In this document: one piece after another, positions 10,901 through 26,479 of the stretch
Layout: each line of letters starts with the position of its first letter
Position numbering within the stretch: the first letter of the stretch is position 1
Source of the DNA: a virus
Length of the DNA: 26,916 nucleotides
Strand: one strand, 5' to 3'
Virus record (IMG/VR): IMGVR_UViG_3300031857_001136
Location: 1-26,916 of that record
Notes under the pieces: model-generated
Database searches by the model: none
Told to the model about the DNA's origin: nothing
The model's input: the letters and a program-made list of their open reading frames with translations, nothing else
Position numbers and translations under genes: made by a program

Positions 10901-12100
10901 ATGACAGAAGAAACCAAATTAAAACATTGTAGCTTTTGCGGCAACAGTAAAGAAGCAGTTAAAAAATTAGTTGTAGGTGAGAATGTAGCTATATGTAGTG
11001 ATTGTGTAGAGCTATGTCAAGACCTTATTGCTGATGAAGTAGGCGACACCAAAGAAGAATTACAACCCGAATATGATGCTGAAACTATTAAAAAGTTTTT
11101 AGATGAGCATGTTATTGGGCAAGATTCAGCTAAGATGGTTATGAGTGTTGCTATTGCAAATCACTATAAACGTATTACTAATCCTCCAAAGAACTTAGAG
11201 ATTCAAAAGGGAAATGTTCTTATAGTAGGACCTACGGGTTCAGGTAAAACATTATTAGCTAAAACAGCTGCCAAGTATCTAAACGTCCCTTTCATAGTAG
11301 CTGACGCAACTAGCTTAACAGAAGCAGGTTATGTCGGTGATGATGTAGAATCAATGATTAGTATGCTATTGAATGCCGCCGGTGGTGACAAAGACTTAGC
11401 AGAACGTGGAATCGTATTTGTTGATGAAATTGACAAGATTGCACGTAAGGGTGAAAGTACTAGTATTACCCGTGACGTATCCGGAGAGGGAGTTCAACAA
11501 GCATTACTAAAGTTAGTTGAAGGTACTGTATGTCGTATTCCTAATAGTGGTGGAAGAAAACATCCTGGATCTGATATGTCTGAGATTAATACTAAAAATA
11601 TCTTATTCATTGCAGGTGGTGCGTTTGTTGGATTAAAAGAACTTATCACCAATCGTGTTAATGGTACAAGCATTGGATTTAATGCTAGTGTTAAAGACAC
11701 TAGAATTGAAGGTGACATGCGTGATGTTCGCCCGGATGATTTAACTAAATTTGGTATGATTCCTGAATTTATTGGACGTTTTACTACTACTGTCAGCATT
11801 GACAATCTTAATAAAGAACAATTAATAAGGGTCTTAACTGACGTTAAGAACAATTACATTAGCCAATATAAATATCTATTTGAGTTAGATAATATTACAC
11901 TAGAATTTACTGACAATGCGTTGGATCAAATTGCAGAAAACACTATCTCTCTTAAAACAGGGGCACGTGGACTTCATACTGAGATTGAAAGAGTATTGAT
12001 GCCACATATGTTTAAAGTAAGAACGTATGCTAAAAACGGGATTAAAACACTAAATATAGATAGAGTTGATGTAATTACACCAAAACCATTGTATGAGTAA
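10901..12100 (+). CDS. clpX: ClpX, ATPase subunit of the ClpXP protease
   Basis: AAA+ unfoldase that recognises tagged substrates and feeds them to ClpP. The N-terminal zinc-binding domain has Cys10/Cys13 and Cys32/Cys35. Walker A GPTGSGKT (110-117), pore-1 loop GYVG (143-146), Walker B IVFVDEID (171-178), RKH loop GRKHP (218-222), arginine-finger region PEFIGRF (288-294) and sensor-2 GARGL (354-358) are all intact. The IGF loop that docks on ClpP is present at 258-260. Length 399 aa against 424 in E. coli. No SD precedes the ATG; TTAAATA abuts it. It overlaps rpsU by 8 bases. Every catalytic element is present, so it should be active with the phage or host ClpP. Confidence 0.97.
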   Translation: MTEETKLKHCSFCGNSKEAVKKLVVGENVAICSDCVELCQDLIADEVGDTKEELQPEYDAETIKKFLDEHVIGQDSAKMVMSVAIANHYKRITNPPKNLEIQKGNVLIVGPTGSGKTLLAKTAAKYLNVPFIVADATSLTEAGYVGDDVESMISMLLNAAGGDKDLAERGIVFVDEIDKIARKGESTSITRDVSGEGVQQALLKLVEGTVCRIPNSGGRKHPGSDMSEINTKNILFIAGGAFVGLKELITNRVNGTSIGFNASVKDTRIEGDMRDVRPDDLTKFGMIPEFIGRFTTTVSIDNLNKEQLIRVLTDVKNNYISQYKYLFELDNITLEFTDNALDQIAENTISLKTGARGLHTEIERVLMPHMFKVRTYAKNGIKTLNIDRVDVITPKPLYE

Positions 12101-12314
12101 AAAAGGCAGACGAATTTTTGTTACAGACGGAAATGTAGATAAAGCTCTACGCAAGTTTAAGAAAAAGATAACCGAATTAGGTTTACTTCAAGAAGTCCGT
12201 GACCGCCAAGAATTTGTCAAACCTACTGTCAAACGTAAAATAGCAAAAAGCCAAGCTGTTCGCAGGTGGAAAAAGCACTTGCGTGACCAATCATTACCAC
12301 CAAAACAGTTTTAA
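12093..12314 (+). CDS. rpsU: Ribosomal protein bS21 homologue
   Basis: A 73-aa, strongly basic protein. NVDKALRKFKKKITELGLL, EVRDRQEFVKPTVKRKIAK and QAVRRWKKHL align along the length of bacterial bS21 (E. coli equivalents: VALRRFKRSCEKAG, EVRRREFYEKPTTERKRAK, AVKRHAKKL). bS21 sits near the anti-Shine-Dalgarno region of the 30S subunit and affects initiation; phage copies are known in aquatic phages and may favour phage mRNAs. The start overlaps the clpX end by 8 bases, so translation is coupled. The N-terminal MSKKGRRIFVTDG is longer and more basic than in E. coli. Confidence 0.9.
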   Translation: MSKKGRRIFVTDGNVDKALRKFKKKITELGLLQEVRDRQEFVKPTVKRKIAKSQAVRRWKKHLRDQSLPPKQF

Positions 12315-12315
12315 C

Positions 12316-12323
12316 CTAAATAC
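12316..12323 (+). promoter_or_regulatory. T4-late-like CTAAATAC
   Basis: CTAAATACTAT just after the rpsU stop resembles the T4 late -10 consensus. It lies about 95 bases upstream of hsp20. Low confidence, because the motif is short and AT-rich. Confidence 0.3.
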
Positions 12324-12343
12324 TATATTTTTTTACGTATTTG

Positions 12344-12352
12344 TGTTATAAT
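12344..12352 (+). promoter_or_regulatory. Extended -10 promoter for hsp20
   Basis: TGTTATAAT is an extended -10 element (TGn plus TATAAT) with no good -35. ATAAATAC (12351-12358) overlaps it, so it could instead be read as a late-type site. Either reading starts the message at about 12359-12363, directly before a stem-loop. Confidence 0.5.
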
Positions 12353-12362
12353 AAATACATAT

Positions 12363-12388
12363 TGTAGATGCCGATGGTCGGGTCTACA
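12363..12388 (+). promoter_or_regulatory. 5'-leader stem-loop upstream of hsp20
   Basis: TGTAGA (12363-12368) pairs with TCTACA (12383-12388), with an inner CCG/CGG helix. It begins within a few bases of the predicted transcript start, 30 bases before the SD. Confidence 0.5.
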
Positions 12389-12418
12389 CATAGTCATCTT
12401 GCTTAATAGGAGAAAAAC

Positions 12419-12856
12419 ATGACAAAAACTTTAACCCTTCGTTCCCTCGACATTCCGTCAATTCACAAATTTGGTATCGGTTTCGATAATATGTTTGATG
12501 AACTAATGCGAATTAACAATCAACAATCACTTAACTATCCCCCATACAACATTATAAAAACATCAGAAGATACCTTTTATATTGAAGTAGCAGTGGCTGG
12601 TTTCGGTGAAGGTGAAGTTGAAATTAACATTGACAATCAAGTGTTAGTTATCAAAGGTAAAAAAGAAGCAGAAATTATTGCTGAATATTTACATCAAGGG
12701 ATCAGTAACAGGGACTTCATGCGTGAATTTACTTTAGCAGAACATGTTGAAGTAGTTAATGCTGTCAATATGAATGGTATTCTTACTATCTATTTGGAGC
12801 GCAAACTCCCTGAAGAAAAGAAACCCAAGTCTATTGCAATTTCTTACACTAAATAA
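12419..12856 (+). CDS. hsp20: Hsp20 / IbpA-type small heat-shock protein
   Basis: ATP-independent chaperone that holds unfolding proteins. The alpha-crystallin domain spans about residues 40-130: YNIIKTSEDTFYIEVAVAGF, VEINIDNQVLVIKGKK, EYLHQGISNRDFMREFTLAE, then NGILTIYLER. The C-terminal tail carries KSIAI, an I-x-I-type oligomerisation motif. Length 145 aa is typical of IbpA (137 aa). SD TAGGAGA lies 7 bases before the ATG. Hsp20 genes are common in T4-like cyanophages, so this is family-typical, but here it sits between the bS21 and ClpS genes. Confidence 0.95.
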   Translation: MTKTLTLRSLDIPSIHKFGIGFDNMFDELMRINNQQSLNYPPYNIIKTSEDTFYIEVAVAGFGEGEVEINIDNQVLVIKGKKEAEIIAEYLHQGISNRDFMREFTLAEHVEVVNAVNMNGILTIYLERKLPEEKKPKSIAISYTK

Positions 12857-12862
12857 TATAAT
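12834..12862 (+). promoter_or_regulatory. Sigma70-type promoter for clpS
   Basis: TTGCAA (12834-12839), 17-base spacer, TATAAT (12857-12862). It spans the end of hsp20. A 6-bp inverted repeat ACACTA/TAGTGT (12846-12867) overlaps the -10 region. Confidence 0.6.
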
Positions 12863-12880
12863 AGTGTTTCGTTAAATAAA

Positions 12881-12904
12881 AGTGTGCGAGGAAACTTGCA
12901 CACT
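12881..12904 (+). promoter_or_regulatory. 10-bp stem-loop with GAAA tetraloop in the clpS leader
   Basis: AGTGTGCGAG (12881-12890), loop GAAA (12891-12894), CTTGCACACT (12895-12904); nine Watson-Crick pairs and one G-T. The loop is a GNRA type. No T-run follows, so it is not a terminator. It ends 17 bases before the clpS ATG. Confidence 0.8.
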
Positions 12905-12921
12905 ACTTCAAGGTATAAATC

Positions 12922-13227
12922 ATGGCACAGACCGAATCAAAAATTAAAATTAAACCTAATCTTAAATTACCAGAACCATCTATGTTCAAGGTAATTTATA
13001 TGAATGATGAACATACTAGTATGGATTTCGTAGTGCGTAGTTTAGTAGATCATTTCGGTCACAATACTGATACTGCCGCACATATTACTACAGGTATACA
13101 TGAGCAGGGCAGTGCTGTCGTAGCAGTTCTACCGTATGAAATTGCAGAACAAAAGGGTATTGAGGTAACACTTGATGCACGTAACGAGGGATTTCCGTTA
13201 CAAGTAAAGATTGAGCCAGAAGTTTAA
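12922..13227 (+). CDS. clpS: ClpS, N-degron adaptor
   Basis: Adaptor that delivers N-end-rule substrates, in bacteria to ClpA(P). The conserved core begins FKVIYMNDEHTSMDFVV (22-38) and contains the N-degron pocket residues Asn28, Asp29 and Met34; His60 in GIHEQG is the matching pocket histidine (E. coli Asn34, Asp35, Met40, His66). PYEIAEQKG (71-79) and the C-terminal FPLQVKIEP strand complete the fold. Length 101 aa against 106 in E. coli. The 21-residue N-terminal extension, which acts on the ATPase in E. coli, is Lys/Pro-rich here. No ClpA gene is in the window. SD is weak (AAGG, 8 bases before the ATG). Confidence 0.93.
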   Translation: MAQTESKIKIKPNLKLPEPSMFKVIYMNDEHTSMDFVVRSLVDHFGHNTDTAAHITTGIHEQGSAVVAVLPYEIAEQKGIEVTLDARNEGFPLQVKIEPEV

Positions 13228-13233
13228 ACTTCT
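13218..13233. repeat. Perfect 16-bp palindrome at a tail-to-tail gene junction
   Basis: AGAAGTTTAAACTTCT contains the stop codons of clpS (+, 13225-13227) and the minus-strand gene (13224-13226), overlapping at TTTAAA. No T-tract; it may form a hairpin in both transcripts. Confidence 0.7.
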
Positions 13234-13919
13234 ATTTCTATTCGTTTTGGCCAATATGGATTTTTGTTAAAACAAGCGTTATTAACATAGTTGATACCGT
13301 TAATATTGGTATCAACCATTTTGTTTGAGTTACCATATATCCAAGTAACTATCTTGTTTTCTGTATCATTAATTAGAGCAGAGTTCAATCCAACGTAATC
13401 AGGTAAATTAGGTTCTTCCCCGTAGAATAAGTCAGCACAGGGAACACAACTAGACACAATTACAATCTTTTTTACATCCACGTGTAATTGCAATTTTTCT
13501 ATAGTTGTGTGTAGATAGTCTTGATCACCGTGTGAGTGATACCCAAGACGTATTTCATCGTCGGGATCTATCGGGGTATAGTTGCCATACCAACCGTTAA
13601 CTGCAACTAATGCTATACCATCTACGATAACAACATTGTTATGAAGATATACAACATTTTTTATTTTACTGGCTATCTTAGCTATTTGGTCTATCCTAGA
13701 TGCTTGTAACATTAATGACCCTATCTCCATAGAACCGTCAATGAAGAATACTCCATGATACTGGGCACTTAAATGTTCTAAAGTTTCTTCTAAAACTTTA
13801 AAATCATCGGTTATATTGCCTGCTACAATACAAAATAAACTAGTTGGTTTTCCTTCCCAATCTAGTTTATATTTGTAAGATAGTTCTAGGTCGCTAATTA
13901 TATCGAAACCTACCACCAT
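13224..13919 (-). CDS. Pseudo-metallophosphoesterase (calcineurin-like fold, metal ligands lost)
   Basis: The 231-aa protein follows the order of the intact metallophosphoesterase at 18780, but each metal-site motif is altered. SDLHLE becomes SDLELS (8-13), SGD becomes AGN (33-35), GNHE becomes GSME (62-65), HHAPS becomes SCVPC (157-161) and HGHMH becomes YGNSN (195-199). Structural segments are kept: NVVYLHNNVVIVDGIALVAV then NGWYGN, KIVIVSS, VTWIYGN. Thus the fold is probably retained while two-metal catalysis is lost, suggesting a binding or regulatory role. Expressed from the minus strand downstream of the Lys/Pro/Ala protein; no SD is visible and AATAAAC precedes the ATG. Identification rests on alignment by eye. 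Confidence 0.75.
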   Translation of the reverse strand: MVVGFDIISDLELSYKYKLDWEGKPTSLFCIVAGNITDDFKVLEETLEHLSAQYHGVFFIDGSMEIGSLMLQASRIDQIAKIASKIKNVVYLHNNVVIVDGIALVAVNGWYGNYTPIDPDDEIRLGYHSHGDQDYLHTTIEKLQLHVDVKKIVIVSSCVPCADLFYGEEPNLPDYVGLNSALINDTENKIVTWIYGNSNKMVDTNINGINYVNNACFNKNPYWPKRIEIEV

Positions 13920-13927
13920 GCAGTTTA

Positions 13928-14248
13928 TTACTGGGTAGCTTTTGGTGCTTTGGGTTTTGCTGGGGCTTTTTTAGCAACAGCTGGGGCTTTTGGCTTTGCT
14001 GGGGCTTTTGGCTTTGCTGGGGCTTTTGGCTTTTTAGATATCGGTGCTTGCTCAACTACCCCTGCAGGTACTACAGCTTCTGGAACAACTACAACGGTTT
14101 CAACAGCTGGTGCAGAATTGACAACCAAAGGAATTGGTGTAGTAGCTGCCGGCTCCGGTACTTTGTACGGGGCTGACACGTTTGCCTCAGTTGTTTCTAC
14201 AGGTTTGGCTTCGGGAACACCAAATAATTTTTTCAAAAAGTTTAACAT
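13928..14248 (-). CDS. Basic Lys/Pro/Ala-tailed protein (106 aa)
   Basis: I chose the ATG at 14248 because AAGGAGAAAATTATG gives an excellent SD; an in-frame ATG at 14266 lies before the SD. The N-terminus MLNFLKKLFGVPEAKP is a short amphipathic basic helix. The middle is Pro/Val/Thr-rich and uncharged, and the last 35 residues are repeats of PKAPAK, like histone-H1-type or bacterial nucleoid-protein tails. Electrostatic DNA or membrane binding is likely; the exact role is unknown. The repeats are encoded by perfect 18-bp tandem units. TAAATA just upstream of the SD could be part of a late promoter. Confidence 0.8.
   Translation of the reverse strand: MLNFLKKLFGVPEAKPVETTEANVSAPYKVPEPAATTPIPLVVNSAPAVETVVVVPEAVVPAGVVEQAPISKKPKAPAKPKAPAKPKAPAVAKKAPAKPKAPKATQ
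13980..14033. repeat. Three perfect 18-bp tandem repeats
   Basis: Unit GCTGGGGCTTTTGGCTTT at 13980-13997, 13998-14015 and 14016-14033. On the minus strand each encodes KPKAPA-type hexapeptides of the basic tail. Copy number could change by slippage. Confidence 0.95.
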
Positions 14249-14307
14249 AATTTTCTCCTTATACATCTATTTACTCTAGGAAAACCATAAAGATAAAATT
14301 TATAATC

Positions 14308-14315
14308 ATAAATAC
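14308..14315 (+). promoter_or_regulatory. T4-late-promoter-like ATAAATAC
   Basis: ATAAATAC ends 7 bases before the ATG at 14323, which has no SD. As at 9355, use as a late promoter would give a nearly leaderless message. Confidence 0.3.
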
Positions 14316-14322
14316 AAGTACT

Positions 14323-14814
14323 ATGTTTCACGGATCACCTACTCTAAAAGAACTAATGGCTTTGCCATTACCCACTATGCGTGAGCAAAAACGTCTAATG
14401 TTTAGGCCCTCACAATGGCAAGTTTCACACGTTTATACACTGATAAACGATAATGTTTTTCATAATATGTTAAAAAAACCGGAACTCATACTAAAATCAA
14501 GATGTAGAAAATATTGGGGAATGTGTATAGGATCACATGACAAGCTAAAAAACGGTAGTTATTGTAAGATTGAACTTATGGACAAGTGGATTAGTCCACA
14601 ATGGATGATAGCTACATTGGCACATGAAATGGTTCATCAATATCAATGGGATATAGCAGGGCCTGAACGTGAGGCAGAGGGATTAAATGCTATTATGAGT
14701 CATGGTCCAAGTTTCTTTCAGTTTCGTGATTTATTAAAAGAACACAATATCCCATTAAAAACGGCGCATTCTCAGCGCCGTTGGTATAAGCATCAAAGCT
14801 TGTTCAAATGCTAA
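14323..14814 (+). CDS. SprT-like zinc metalloprotease
   Basis: The zinc motif HEMVH (101-105) lies in LAHEMVHQYQWD, and a third ligand His127 is in MSHGPSFFQF, as in the SprT/Spartan family (HExxH plus a downstream HGxxF). An upstream beta region (CRKYWGMCIG, CKIELMDKWI) matches the family core. There is no signal peptide, so it acts in the cytoplasm. SprT-like proteases of other organisms digest DNA-protein crosslinks; here a role in replication or clearing host proteins is inferred. 163 aa, close to E. coli SprT (165 aa). The stop is directly adjacent to the stop of the convergent gene (TAATTA). In-frame ATGs at codons 12, 19 and 26 are alternative starts. Confidence 0.87.
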   Translation: MFHGSPTLKELMALPLPTMREQKRLMFRPSQWQVSHVYTLINDNVFHNMLKKPELILKSRCRKYWGMCIGSHDKLKNGSYCKIELMDKWISPQWMIATLAHEMVHQYQWDIAGPEREAEGLNAIMSHGPSFFQFRDLLKEHNIPLKTAHSQRRWYKHQSLFKC

Positions 14815-15894
14815 TTACTTTTTGATATTAGGATTGTCTACTACATTCCCGTTAACATCAACAAGAATAACATCTTTAGTACCCTTCTTACCGATAGCAC
14901 GATTCAATACAGATGCCATTGGTCTGATACCTCGAATACCCAAAGCCTTACTTAAACGACCTTTGTTATTACGTAATAACCAAACCATCATGTGACTTGT
15001 AGGGATATCTTCTTTACGAGTAATAACAGCATGACATTCAATACTAATGTTGTTCTCCACCTGATGATAATGTTTAGGCTCAAAGTCTTGGATAACAATG
15101 CCACCATGAGGATTAATGTCACTACCAAAAATAGCACTCATTGCTTCTTCTTCAGTAGGTTCAATAACAATCTCTTTACTTAGGAAATAACTTTTACCGT
15201 CAGGTTGTAATATAAGTTTAACTACTTTATCTTTTACTAATTTATCAATTATTTCACGTGCTTTGGCCCCAAACAATGAATCAGCAGATTCCCATGTTTC
15301 AGCACTTAGTTCTTTGATAGATACAGGTAATCTGCTCTTAGAGCTAGCTAATACAATATCTGCTTTCTTACGTTCAGCAACGTCAGAACCAGTTGGATAT
15401 ACTTGGTCAACGTTCTTAATTGTCATTGTTTTTCCACGTGGGTCTTTAAAAGTAACATTGATTAGTCCATACTTCTCAACCATACTTGCTAAGTATGAAG
15501 CAATTTCAGCTTCATTGCCTACACCAGCACTCTTTTCACCCTGTTGACCTGCATCTTTAATAATAACTTGTACAGGGCTACCGTCACCAAAAACGACACC
15601 ACCTAAGCTACTCTTGGCCGCTGCCGAATACTCTGGACCTGCATCTGGTAAATACTTTTTCAATATAGCCAAAACATCTTGTAGCAACGATGACCTAAAC
15701 TCACCCTTTTTAGCACCGTCTGGTATCTGTGTAACTACGCCGATTACATTACCATTAGGTTTTAAGTCTTCATACCCTGCTTGACGTAATACTTGTTCAA
15801 CCTGTGCCTTTGTAACGGGCGATGGTTCTTGCGAGTTCACTACTGTCGGGGCTTTTGCTTCAACCAAAGTGTTTGCAAATTCAATGTATCTCAT
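14815..15894 (-). CDS. Probable head-internal protein with PD-(D/E)XK-like core (359 aa)
   Basis: The N-terminus MRYIEFANTLVEAKAP resembles the capsid-targeting peptide of T4 internal proteins, and LVE-A (10-13) fits the T4 prohead protease rule of cleavage after (L/I)-x-E, removing 12 residues. The core contains GNEAEIASYL (126-135), then KKADIVLAS (176-184) and VSIKEL (191-196). Asp179 and Lys194, with a preceding acidic helix, match the spacing of PD-(D/E)XK nucleases with Ser in place of the second acid. The C-terminal 100 residues are basic (NNKGRLSKALGIRGIR). I infer a protein packaged in the head and ejected with DNA, perhaps a nuclease; neither cleavage nor activity is proved. Promoter elements lie upstream on the minus strand. 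Confidence 0.7.
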   Translation of the reverse strand: MRYIEFANTLVEAKAPTVVNSQEPSPVTKAQVEQVLRQAGYEDLKPNGNVIGVVTQIPDGAKKGEFRSSLLQDVLAILKKYLPDAGPEYSAAAKSSLGGVVFGDGSPVQVIIKDAGQQGEKSAGVGNEAEIASYLASMVEKYGLINVTFKDPRGKTMTIKNVDQVYPTGSDVAERKKADIVLASSKSRLPVSIKELSAETWESADSLFGAKAREIIDKLVKDKVVKLILQPDGKSYFLSKEIVIEPTEEEAMSAIFGSDINPHGGIVIQDFEPKHYHQVENNISIECHAVITRKEDIPTSHMMVWLLRNNKGRLSKALGIRGIRPMASVLNRAIGKKGTKDVILVDVNGNVVDNPNIKK

Positions 15895-15926
15895 ATATAA
15901 TATCTCAAATAGTTGATGAAGTGCTA

Positions 15927-15956
15927 ATTATAGCACCGATTTAGTATTTATCGCAA
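15927..15956 (-). promoter_or_regulatory. Promoter region for the minus-strand head-protein gene
   Basis: On the minus strand: TTGCGA (15956-15951), 18-base spacer, extended -10 TGCTATAAT (-10 at 15932-15927). The same stretch holds ATAAATAC (15951-15944), a T4-late-like motif, so two readings compete. GTGCTA/TAGCAC (15921-15936) forms a dyad over the -10 box. Confidence 0.45.
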
Positions 15957-15976
15957 ATTTTTAATAAAGGAAAGAT

Positions 15977-16573
15977 ATGAGTTTAGTGCCTATCGTTGTT
16001 GAGACTACAAGTAAAGGTGAACGTAGTTACGACATTTATTCACGTTTGATGCGTGACCGTGTAATTTTGCTTGAAGGCGAAGTACATGACCAAATGGCAA
16101 ATTTAATTGTTGCCCAACTATTGTTCTTAGAAAGTGAAGATAGTCATAAAGATATTTCAATGTATATCAATAGTCCAGGTGGTTCAGTTACTGCTGGTAT
16201 GGCAATCTATGATTGTATGCAATTTGTTAGCCCTGATGTACAAACAATTGTTATGGGTCAAGCCTGTTCAATGGGTAGTTTGCTTGGTCAAGCAGGAGCT
16301 AAAGGTAAGCGTTTTATCCTGCCCAATGCACGACATATGATTCACCAGCCCTCAGGTGGCGCACGTGGTCAAGCTACTGATATGGAAATTCAGGTTAAAG
16401 AGATTTTAGCCATGAAAAAGACATTGACACAAATCTATGTAGACCATAATAGTGCAGGAAAATCGTTTGAGGAGCTTGCAAAAGACATGGAACGTGACTA
16501 TTTTATGAGTGCAAGTGAGGCCGTAGCATATGGCCTAGCTGATAAAGTGTTGCAAAAACGCAACATGTCCTAA
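15977..16573 (+). CDS. clpP: ClpP protease subunit
   Basis: Serine peptidase that forms the degradation chamber of ClpXP/ClpAP. Catalytic Ser98 lies in GQACSMGS, His123 in MIHQPSGG and Asp174 in MERDYFMSA. The oxyanion/strand motif [10 protein letters not shown] (65-74) is intact. The protein starts [20 protein letters not shown], aligning with the mature N-terminus of E. coli ClpP (ALVPMVIEQTSRGERS), so it lacks the 14-residue propeptide and needs no self-cleavage. 198 aa. SD AAAGGAAAG precedes the ATG. It stands 3.9 kb from clpX with minus-strand genes between, so the two are not in one operon. Its stop is followed directly by an early-type promoter. Confidence 0.97.
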
Positions 16574-24175: not shown

Positions 24176-24483
24176 GTACTTGGTTTTCTAGTATAATCAA
24201 CTAAATTAAAATCTTCGCCAGAACCCACTAAACAAGTGATATCACCTTTAGTAGTGATTATAGACCAAGATTTAGTATTTGGATTAATCCACAAAGACAT
24301 TATACTACGAGCTTGGTCTGCTGTTTTGCCAATCAACAGTGGGCTCTCTCTGTATTTCTCTTTGAGTTTACCTACAATTTCTTTTGTATCTGAACAATAA
24401 AGTTCAGCGGTAATCATCTCTCCGGCGTTACTTTGTAGTGGCACGATAGACGCCATCCCAATCAGTAGGTAAATTGTTTTCAC
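24172..24483 (-). CDS. Small secreted/periplasmic protein (103 aa)
   Basis: Start is GTG at 24483 with SD AGGAG at normal spacing, both inside the end of the cyclase gene (56-base overlap). The N-terminus MKTIYLLIGMASIVPLQSNA is a typical signal peptide, probably cleaved after Ala20. The mature part contains Cys29 and Cys84, which could form a disulphide, and WSIITTKGDITCLVGSGEDF at the C-terminal side. Small exported proteins of this pattern occur in marine T4-like phages; function unknown. Translation is likely linked to the cyclase, which also faces the periplasm. Confidence 0.75.
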   Translation of the reverse strand: MKTIYLLIGMASIVPLQSNAGEMITAELYCSDTKEIVGKLKEKYRESPLLIGKTADQARSIMSLWINPNTKSWSIITTKGDITCLVGSGEDFNLVDYTRKPST

Positions 24484-26479
24484 GTAGTTCTCCTATTCTT
24501 TCTATCATTATATCATAATAGTCATCCATATGCGAATCAAATTCACCCTTTAGTTGGTCTATCATATGCAATGCCTGATCCCATTTCTGTTCACGGTAAT
24601 AATCTATCATCAAATCATGTATCTCACGTGCTGATAGATATTCTGTAATAGTACTAGGATCAGTCTTTAATGGTGTGTAGATATTCAATCCAATTGTCTT
24701 ACCCTTTACAGCAATACAATCTAACTCTAATGTAAAGATTTCATCTTTAACTTGCTCATTAGTATTAGGACCAATGATACATAACACACCATATCCTTTA
24801 GTCTGGCCTTCTAGCCTAGCCGCAGTAGATACACTATCACCTAATACGTCATAACCAAACTTAGTTTTAGCACCAATGTTACCGATCAATGTTTCACCTG
24901 TGTTAACACCGGCACCCATACCAACTGGTGGACGACCACTCGCTGTTAACTCTTTATTGAATTCTTCAATAGCATCAATCATTTGCATTGCAGTTATAAC
25001 CGCTGTTACTGCATGTTTAGGATCGTCTAATGGTGCACCATGTACATGTAAACTTGCATCACCGATGAACTTAATTAATGTACCATCGTTCTTTAATACA
25101 GGAACACTTAATGCAGTCATGTAGTCATTCATAATCTGTGTCAAGCCTTCAACGTCATCTCCGAATGACTCGCCTAAACTAGTGAAGCCACGCAAATCAG
25201 TCATAACAATAGATAATTCTCTACGTTCTCCTCCTAACTTAATTAGTGAAGGATCTTTCTGTAATCTTTCAACTATAGTTGGATTGACATAACTTCCAAA
25301 CTGTTTCTTAATTTGTTGTTTCTGTAAGAATTCACTTACAAACTTGACAGTATAAGCATGAAGATAAACCAAACCAATCCCAGTAACAGGGGCGGTAATA
25401 TCATAGAGCCATAGATTGGATGTGAATAGATACGATGCAATAAAATGACTAGAACCAAGAACAATAATAACTGGAATAAAAGCATATGTCCACCTTGATA
25501 ATAATATAACTAATAAACCTAAAGCTAGTATAGCGATAAGTTCCACACCATCAGCATAATCAGGACGCACAATAACAACATTGTTAAGCATCGTTCCTAT
25601 TATACTAGCTTGAACATCATGTGGCCATACTGATCCTTTACTTGTCGGTACAGGATTGTTTAATCCACTCGCAGTTAAGCCCACTATAACAATAGCACCA
25701 CCAAAGTCTTTTGGTAGATCCATTAAACTTACTGGTTTGCTTTGTTGACTGTAATCAATCCAAATACGTCCTAAATTATCAGTAATAATAGTACCAAACT
25801 TTGGTATACGCATTTTTTCTACACCATTCTCGTTAAGCTTAACTTGGAATGTTGTATCTCCTGCGGCCACTCTTAGTACTTCCATACTTAAACTTGGGTA
25901 GAGTTTACCATCTACACTAGCAATCAATGGGATACGTCTATTGACACCATCTATCTCTGGTAATGTATTAGCTGTACCTACACCATATGCACTGTTTTCT
26001 AATAGAGGAACGTTAGCAATGATTCCTGGATACTGAACTATTCTATCTAACCATTCAGGAGCTAATACTGCTGCACCTGGATTACGTGGAATATTCTTTG
26101 TTTTGTCACTAGGTATATTAGGAAGAATAACAGGATACTGTTTCATAATATATGCTAACTTACCATCTTGACCACTTCTATCACTATCAGGCATTAGTAC
26201 GTTGAATACAACAAGACCTGCATTACGTTTGTATAAGTCTTCTATTATTTTAGCGTATTCGTTGCGTGGTAATGGCCACTGACCATACTTGTCCAATGTT
26301 GCTTCATCTACATTGACTGTGTAGATGTTGTTTTCTGTTGGAGCTTTATTAGTGATAAGAGTATCAAAATATCTTAATCTAACTGATTCTATGAATTGAG
26401 AATCTGCTACACGAACCGAAAGAACTAGTACTAGCGTTAGTAGCGCCGACCAGGGACTGAGAATTATTTTTTTAATCAT
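24428..26479 (-). CDS. CHASE2-sensor transmembrane adenylate/guanylate cyclase (683 aa)
   Basis: N-terminal membrane segment (about 10-22), an extracytoplasmic CHASE2 domain (about 28-305; VNVDEATLDKYGQWPLPR and VIVGLTASGL are family hallmarks), three membrane segments (about 311-329, 333-352, 358-376), a class III cyclase domain (about 420-605) and a helical tail (611-683). Metal-binding Asp428 (TDLRGFTS) and Asp474 (KFIGDAS), base-contacting Lys470 and Asp548, and transition-state Arg555 are present; Lys/Asp suggests ATP. The usual catalytic Asn is Ser551 (GDSVSTAARLE). It should sense a periplasmic signal and make cAMP, perhaps weakly. Such a receptor is unexpected in a phage. Confidence 0.92.
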   Translation of the reverse strand: MIKKIILSPWSALLTLVLVLSVRVADSQFIESVRLRYFDTLITNKAPTENNIYTVNVDEATLDKYGQWPLPRNEYAKIIEDLYKRNAGLVVFNVLMPDSDRSGQDGKLAYIMKQYPVILPNIPSDKTKNIPRNPGAAVLAPEWLDRIVQYPGIIANVPLLENSAYGVGTANTLPEIDGVNRRIPLIASVDGKLYPSLSMEVLRVAAGDTTFQVKLNENGVEKMRIPKFGTIITDNLGRIWIDYSQQSKPVSLMDLPKDFGGAIVIVGLTASGLNNPVPTSKGSVWPHDVQASIIGTMLNNVVIVRPDYADGVELIAILALGLLVILLSRWTYAFIPVIIVLGSSHFIASYLFTSNLWLYDITAPVTGIGLVYLHAYTVKFVSEFLQKQQIKKQFGSYVNPTIVERLQKDPSLIKLGGERRELSIVMTDLRGFTSLGESFGDDVEGLTQIMNDYMTALSVPVLKNDGTLIKFIGDASLHVHGAPLDDPKHAVTAVITAMQMIDAIEEFNKELTASGRPPVGMGAGVNTGETLIGNIGAKTKFGYDVLGDSVSTAARLEGQTKGYGVLCIIGPNTNEQVKDEIFTLELDCIAVKGKTIGLNIYTPLKTDPSTITEYLSAREIHDLMIDYYREQKWDQALHMIDQLKGEFDSHMDDYYDIMIERIGELRENNLPTDWDGVYRATTK

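Follow-up and report, generated by a model that had tools for sequence, protein, structure and literature searches.

What is a protein whose predicted fold resembles restriction enzymes doing behind a peptide that resembles the head-targeting leaders of phage T4? The question arises from one gene in a phage fragment of 26.9 kb (IMG/VR virus record IMGVR_UViG_3300031857_001136, positions 1 to 26,916; this whole stretch is the window). The gene lies at 14815-15894 on the minus strand, starts with ATG, encodes 359 amino acids and matches the PHROG_12709 profile (E=2.9e-35 over residues 120-325). Its translation, which begins MRYIEFANTLVE-AKAPTVVN, agrees with that from which an earlier, sequence-only reading had predicted an ejected head protein with a T4-style targeting peptide, a nuclease-like core and a late-type upstream motif, and each computable part of that prediction found support. 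We regard a head-packaged, injected nuclease of a T4-like phage as the best reading of the gene and give it slightly better than even credence. The gene and its conservation, the layout of the peptide, the late-type motif, the predicted fold and the conserved residues are observed; packaging, cleavage, catalysis and substrate are the parts that we infer, packaging being probable and the better supported and nuclease catalysis fairly likely.

An identical copy of the protein (100%) is encoded in a 49-kb IMG/VR contig (L001). The window open reading frame (ORF) is 81-84% identical to those of three other loci and 50% identical to that of a fourth; two of the closer three encode one same protein, and the lineage has four distinct proteins in total. 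Between the window and L002, nonsynonymous divergence (dN) is 0.107 and synonymous divergence (dS) 1.05, a dN/dS of ~0.1 that indicates purifying selection and therefore a working gene. As to its function, Pfam, PADLOC and PDB sequences gave nothing usable; in one locus (L066), matches to HSDR_N (E=0.0015, below its cut-off) and to OSCP (just above its own) were not used. Comparison of 10 kb of the window with phages by megablast gave no match, and a pattern search of genome contigs yielded 75 matches and no relatives.

The N-terminal peptide and the upstream region

Residues 1-12, MRYIEFANTLVE (15859-15894, minus strand; low model confidence), form a predicted capsid-targeting peptide with the layout of T4 ipI, ipII and ipIII: the aromatics Y3-x-x-F6, spaced by three, are followed by L10-V11-E12, with cleavage predicted after E12 and A13 next. 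The T4 internal proteins (IPs) begin MKTYQEFIAE-A in II and III and MKTFKEFTSTTTPVSTITE-A in I, their cut positions being known for T4, and the window peptide is intermediate in layout between IPIII and IPI. According to the account of IPIII mutants in PMC9026906 (section 2.6), targeting depends on residues 4 and 7 and processing on residues 8 and 10. The peptide is kept in all five related contigs; the four distinct lineage proteins all have M1, R2, Y3, E5, F6, L10 and E12, and the Y3/F6 spacing is the same in 4/4. As in IPI, IPII and IPIII (and Alt), a tag with two aromatics three apart and an L/I-x-E site stands on unrelated bodies; unlike those proteins, the window body is a predicted nuclease fold of ~350 amino acids with conserved catalytic-type residues, neither a small inhibitor nor an ADP-ribosyltransferase. 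The linker that follows, residues 13-27 (15814-15858, minus strand), is modelled with low confidence to residue 20 and is missing from most untagged isolate relatives.

The late-type motif claimed for the minus-strand upstream region is there as well. The late-promoter-like GATAAATA (15945-15952, minus strand) lies 58 nt upstream of the ATG and is present in all five loci; GATAAATAC stands 58 nt ahead of the ATG in the window and L003 and 59 nt ahead in L004, and occurs also in L002 and L005. Across eight lineage loci, NATAAATA, which we take to be the late promoter of T4-like cyanophages, has 40 sites. The 15-90 nt ahead of ORF starts hold 19 of these, where 2.3 would be expected (~eightfold); 2-kb overlaps between loci cause a few sites to be counted twice. 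Conserved and lineage-enriched, the motif points to the late expression that marks T4-type head proteins. A sigma-70-like site, TTGCGA-18-TATAAT (15927-15956, minus strand; 10/12 matches), overlaps GATAAATA and is largely conserved between loci; such sites are as frequent in the region as the shuffle mean. Over its -10 box lies a palindrome, GTGCTA-TAAT-TAGCAC (15921-15936, minus strand), found by eye, whose arms are altered together in L004 (GTGAT...ATCAC, also by eye). Because this site, with the palindrome on its -10 box, overlaps the late-type motif, earlier or repressible expression is possible.

Tagged proteins in virions and in the PHROG_12709 family

How specific is such a peptide? In 50 kb of T4, the tag-form pattern picks out exactly ipI, ipII and ipIII (3/65 ORFs, 0/260 internal methionines), a sensitivity that is by construction, because the pattern was designed with the T4 IPs in mind. 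In the window lineage it matches 7/248 ORF N-termini against 1/778 internal methionines, in a form broadened from an earlier version in which a residue had to separate F from the cleavage motif. These seven are four family proteins, an acetyltransferase-like protein (MKSREFITEK), a glycoside hydrolase of family GH19 (MRAKEFVSED) and a protein that its sequence alone labels as deaminase-like. In the GH19 gene (L016 11244-11906; chitinase/lysozyme-like), the tag-like peptide precedes a Tat-like signal and TATAAATA lies 33 nt upstream.

A stricter pattern matches 57/705 distinct ORFs of the contigs that carry the family, nine of the 57 being family proteins, with an internal-position rate of 2.6e-4. 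The unrelated tagged neighbours include DUF6267 proteins, a HAD-like relative of polynucleotide kinase, an HD-domain protein, a second nuclease-like protein and cytidylyltransferase-like proteins. Looking for other genes with the same N-terminus, a check proposed with the original prediction, returned many unrelated proteins in the family contigs. DUF6267-like genes, identified by K-W/Y/F-D-G-A/S-P, are present in 26/37 loci, and 12/26 fit the strict pattern; among the 30 loci whose room exceeds 1.5 kb, 20 have such a gene downstream of the nuclease gene within 3.5 kb, often overlapping it. In S-8S55 the DUF6267 gene comes after the nuclease gene and leaves no space for a tag, and the checked pieces of the window's own lineage contain no DUF6267-like gene. 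We call DUF6267 ligase-like solely from the likeness of its KWDGAP motif to K-x-D-G of ligases; searching PDB sequences with it gave no result. In two loci (L068 8852-9640 and L083 5549-6337), the family gene shares its end with the gene of a second tagged protein, PHROG_26930, which bears an IEIKLS motif and looks nuclease-like by eye.

Published virion proteomes offer a test of the tag. For cyanophage S-CREM2, whose virions were purified by CsCl, Table 3 of PMC10665884 lists 52 virion proteins. With 218/219 genes compared (gp21, cut by the region edge, was omitted) and the strict pattern fixed beforehand, its three matches, gp6, gp14 and gp154, are all in that list (p=0.013); once structural proteins and endolysins are set aside, 3/3 matches compare with 23/189 other proteins (p=0.0022). 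A relaxed pattern, chosen post hoc once the N-termini had been seen, has 7/10 matches in the list (p=0.002); the four that it adds there are gp12, gp13, gp136 and gp122, the last a structural protein, and its three matches outside the list are gp71, gp175 and gp199. The window protein thus shares its type of N-terminal peptide with a virion S-adenosylmethionine (SAM) hydrolase (gp6), kinase (gp14), cytidylyltransferase (gp154) and Cas9-like protein (gp12), and with gp13 and gp136. It differs from these in that they are other enzymes, and S-CREM2 is absent among the listed tblastn matches of the family, where the only Synechococcus record is S-8S55. The S-CREM2 authors consider that such enzymes may be encapsulated or may be purification leftovers (PMC10665884), and a word search of that paper did not return "N-terminal". 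In S-SZBM1, the strict pattern matches gp14 (from an internal methionine), gp57, gp140, gp191 and gp192, paired by hand with the gene tables; within one operon, tagged gp140 and untagged gp139 are detected in virions, whereas neither the DUF6267-like gp141, also untagged, nor the adjacent gp142 is. Two of these matches, gp191 and gp192 (L118 32311-33125), are small tagged proteins, MKSFKSFLSES and MKTFKQYITEA, encoded near terminase and neck genes and outside the virion list. Literature searches within open PubMed Central papers listed none that describes a targeting peptide on cyanophage enzymes and none that mentions DUF6267.

The family occurs in aquatic T4-like phages, and most of its members share 26-38% identity with the window protein. 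Matches by tblastn came from 67 phage records, chiefly of Vibrio and Stenotrophomonas phages, and scanning IMG/VR with a profile yielded 177 confirmed relatives, of which 80 were kept. We aligned 42 sequences: 37 non-redundant ones from 77 locus proteins, the four lineage proteins and L030; L031, L073, L094, L103 and L108, with open-ended or doubtful starts, were omitted. Tag patterns fit 19 of the 42, common homologue tags being MAITFAQFINEA, MAKTFAQFLNEA and MKSFKQYIYE, and the tag label changes at least six times across the tree, a quick one with long branches in which label counts vary with the patterns chosen. All five isolate relatives inspected are untagged; four begin near the conserved domain, and that of Xanthomonas phage X1 has a longer untagged N-terminus. 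Their genes adjoin replication/recombination genes, and in VH7D and D479 the next gene has a UvsW.1 domain.

Might the window protein, then, be an unpackaged nuclease of intracellular replication or recombination, its N-terminal peptide serving another role or being a remnant? Untagged members from the KVP40 group, D479, Menderavirus, X1 and S-8S55 do sit amid primase, helicase, RecA-like, NrdD or UvsW.1-type genes, and the PHROG_12709 proteins of KVP40-group and Menderavirus phages share the two-domain body. Those proteins, however, are untagged and encoded in replication/recombination blocks, whereas the window protein is tagged; tag and late-type motif are both conserved in its lineage, and the same peptide occurs on unrelated proteins and on virion-detected S-CREM2 enzymes. 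We therefore consider an intracellular role for the window protein unlikely. If the window protein is packaged and injected, the untagged version in relatives such as the KVP40 group would be made intracellularly, as part of a replication/recombination set.

Predicted fold and putative active site

The full-length model has a mean predicted local distance difference test (pLDDT) score of 86.6, with residues 1-20 under 50. A PD-(D/E)XK-like core is predicted at residues 120-221 (15232-15537, minus strand) as alpha-beta-beta-beta-alpha, with the invariant residues E128, D179, S192, K194, E202 and D205. A structure prediction had been proposed as a check of the nuclease fold; residues 118-359 modelled alone gave a pLDDT of 88.4 and a predicted TM-score (pTM) of 0.80, with HhaI (Z 6.1, root-mean-square deviation (rmsd) 4.2, 146 aa) and HinP1I (Z 6.0, rmsd 4.6, 165 aa) as the best VIA matches. 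I-Ssp6803I and Hjc resolvases follow (Z 4.9), then more restriction enzymes and RecU, and the list also holds glutamine synthetases at Z under 4. By Foldseek, the same residues match chlorovirus proteins, including a Chlorella-virus "Endonuclease" (E=1.3e-5), and a protein of cyanophage S-CAM9.

Invariant in all 42 sequences are E128, D179, S192, K194 and W201-E202-S203-A204-D205. In the model, E128 lies within the first helix (123-142), D179 starts a strand, S192-x-K194 closes the next, and W201-E202-S203-A204-D205 runs into the following helix; D179, S192-I193-K194 and the upstream acidic helix, which carries E128, are thus where they had been placed. In restriction enzymes of the CCGG family the site is permuted to PD...K...D/E (PMC6344858), and the active site described for BsaWI is E92, D145, K165 and D175 (PMC4652773). 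By sequence, the residue order in the window protein is that of BsaWI, with E202 or D205 as the putative moved acid: these invariant acids follow K194 by 8 and 11 residues, compared with 10 in BsaWI and ~10-14 expected of the permuted type. This comparison is one of residue layout alone, because no CCGG-family enzyme is among the 50 VIA matches listed. The protein would thus be like HhaI and HinP1I in predicted fold and like the CCGG family (BsaWI, NgoMIV) in its helix Glu, Asp, Lys and shifted acid, and unlike all of these in having no detectable sequence relation to them.

On either side of the core, the N-terminal alpha/beta domain, residues 28-119 (15538-15813, minus strand; pLDDT mostly ~90), has nucleotidyltransferase domains as its best VIA match (Z 8.8 over 78 aa), and whole-model Foldseek and VIA searches rank terminal nucleotidyltransferases first, the VIA rows covering residues 6-120. 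This likeness, seen in the model, is possibly just a common arrangement; we did not call the domain an active transferase from this comparison of folds. The C-terminal part, residues 222-359 (14818-15231, minus strand), has F256, G257, D259, R308, R313, R324 and R332 invariant in the 42 sequences, and the VIA alignment with HinP1I extends into it, to model residue 213/242, which is protein residue 330.

A packaged and injected protein need not be an enzyme. Its nuclease fold might be dead and serve to bind DNA or an enzyme of host restriction or defence, in the manner of the inhibitors IPI-III: all three T4 IPs are reported to inhibit GmrSD restriction enzymes (PMC12373910), and the window protein does not have the motif III acid. 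Yet the full permuted-site residue set is kept at mostly 26-38% identity, which would be needless for a decoy, and the T4 IPs are described as homologous in the leader only (PMC12373910), unlike this conserved two-domain family; a dead fold is accordingly about as improbable as an unpackaged nuclease, or slightly more so. A head-morphogenesis protein of the scaffold core, its nuclease fold incidental, is very improbable: IPIII does affect T4 head assembly (PMC9026906), but the nuclease-type residues are invariant, and many relatives are untagged and presumably still form heads.

Proposed action, and neighbouring genes

If the protein is a packaged nuclease, it would be synthesized late by a T4-like phage. 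Residues 1-12 would act as a capsid-targeting sequence (CTS) by binding to the prohead core, and a gp21-type prohead protease would cut after Leu-Val-Glu12. The mature protein, from AKAPTVVN on, would remain in the head and enter the host along with the DNA. There it would be a metal-dependent nuclease of the PD-(D/E)XK type with a permuted site (E128, D179, K194 and E202 or D205), and in the first minutes, ahead of phage gene expression, its substrate would be host DNA or structured DNA.

Several observations weigh against this proposal. The residue after the predicted cut (P1') varies, being A in the window and L002/L005, Q in L003 and R in L004. Searches by tblastn with T4 head genes, including the protease, found none in the window-lineage loci, all of which are fragments, and hit L027 and L093 only; the cleavage rule can therefore not be read from the lineage's own capsid protein. 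The tag patterns fail in 23/42 aligned members, 6/23 being near misses (MAITYSQFVENA and similar), and the lineage pattern can err, since it also matches the GH19 protein with its Tat-like signal and the deaminase-like protein. In S-SZBM1, where 30/218 proteins were detected (PMC9146016, Table 1), gp140 is the only one of five strict matches detected, no better than the base rate, and untagged gp139 is detected. For the fold, VIA Z values of ~6 may reflect no more than a common arrangement in the model; Foldseek gave zero PDB matches at E<=0.001, and HMMER likewise none. The likeness to PD-(D/E)XK nucleases holds for the predicted fold and for invariant E128, D179 and K194, and does not extend to motif III, where the canonical D/E-x-K is replaced by S-x-K, a serine at this place being found in permuted restriction enzymes too; with S192 in 42/42, the protein is therefore a permuted, fold-level relative and not a canonical member. 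HinP1I has Q-x-K in place of D/E-x-K.

An active packaged nuclease would, finally, need to leave the DNA of its own phage intact. T4 heads take tagged EcoRI and staphylococcal nuclease (PMC9026906), and staphylococcal nuclease digested the DNA in the head on calcium addition (PMC3012670). A packaged nuclease is therefore physically possible, so long as it is inactive within the head or does not recognize the phage's DNA. The window protein resembles these artificial IPIII/CTS fusions in joining tag and nuclease (PMC9026906, PMC3012670), and differs from them in that its fusion would have arisen in nature and been maintained by selection. If the proposal is true, a natural nuclease-fold protein is packed beside the phage's own DNA; how, then, is that DNA spared?

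We tentatively extend the proposal, with slightly less than even confidence, to a wider one. Aquatic T4-like phages may preload an enzyme kit by means of an exchangeable T4-style tag, whose gain or loss would switch enzymes between being injected and being newly made. The kit might comprise the restriction-nuclease-like protein described here, ligase-like DUF6267, NMNAT/cytidylyltransferase and HAD and HD hydrolases, with SAM hydrolase, kinase and Cas9-like nuclease in S-CREM2, and, before any phage transcript is made, could act on the nucleic acids of both host and phage and on nicotinamide adenine dinucleotide (NAD). The injected proteins of aquatic T4-like phages, a list that proteomics alone now supplies, would then follow from a sequence rule spanning about a dozen residues. 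Enzymes seen in virions have so far been left without an explanation, and the S-CREM2 and S-SCSM1 authors could not rule out carry-over.

A SprT-like metalloprotease gene (14323-14814) faces the nuclease-like gene of the window end to end, and ClpX, ClpS, ClpP and Hsp20 genes surround the latter (10901-16573), a near-complete Clp protease set by Pfam. The minus-strand neighbour at 13928-14266 encodes a protein of Lys/Pro/Ala repeats (KPKAPAK), which by eye looks like histone H1 and has no Pfam match; its counterparts in L016 and L019 begin with a hydrophobic stretch. Further off, 24428-26479 encodes a 683-aa protein with CHASE2 and adenylate/guanylate cyclase domains (Pfam), and a contig that matches the window (L013) has a CsgG curli secretion gene at 13235-14233, with further curli-like genes, recognized by eye, close by.
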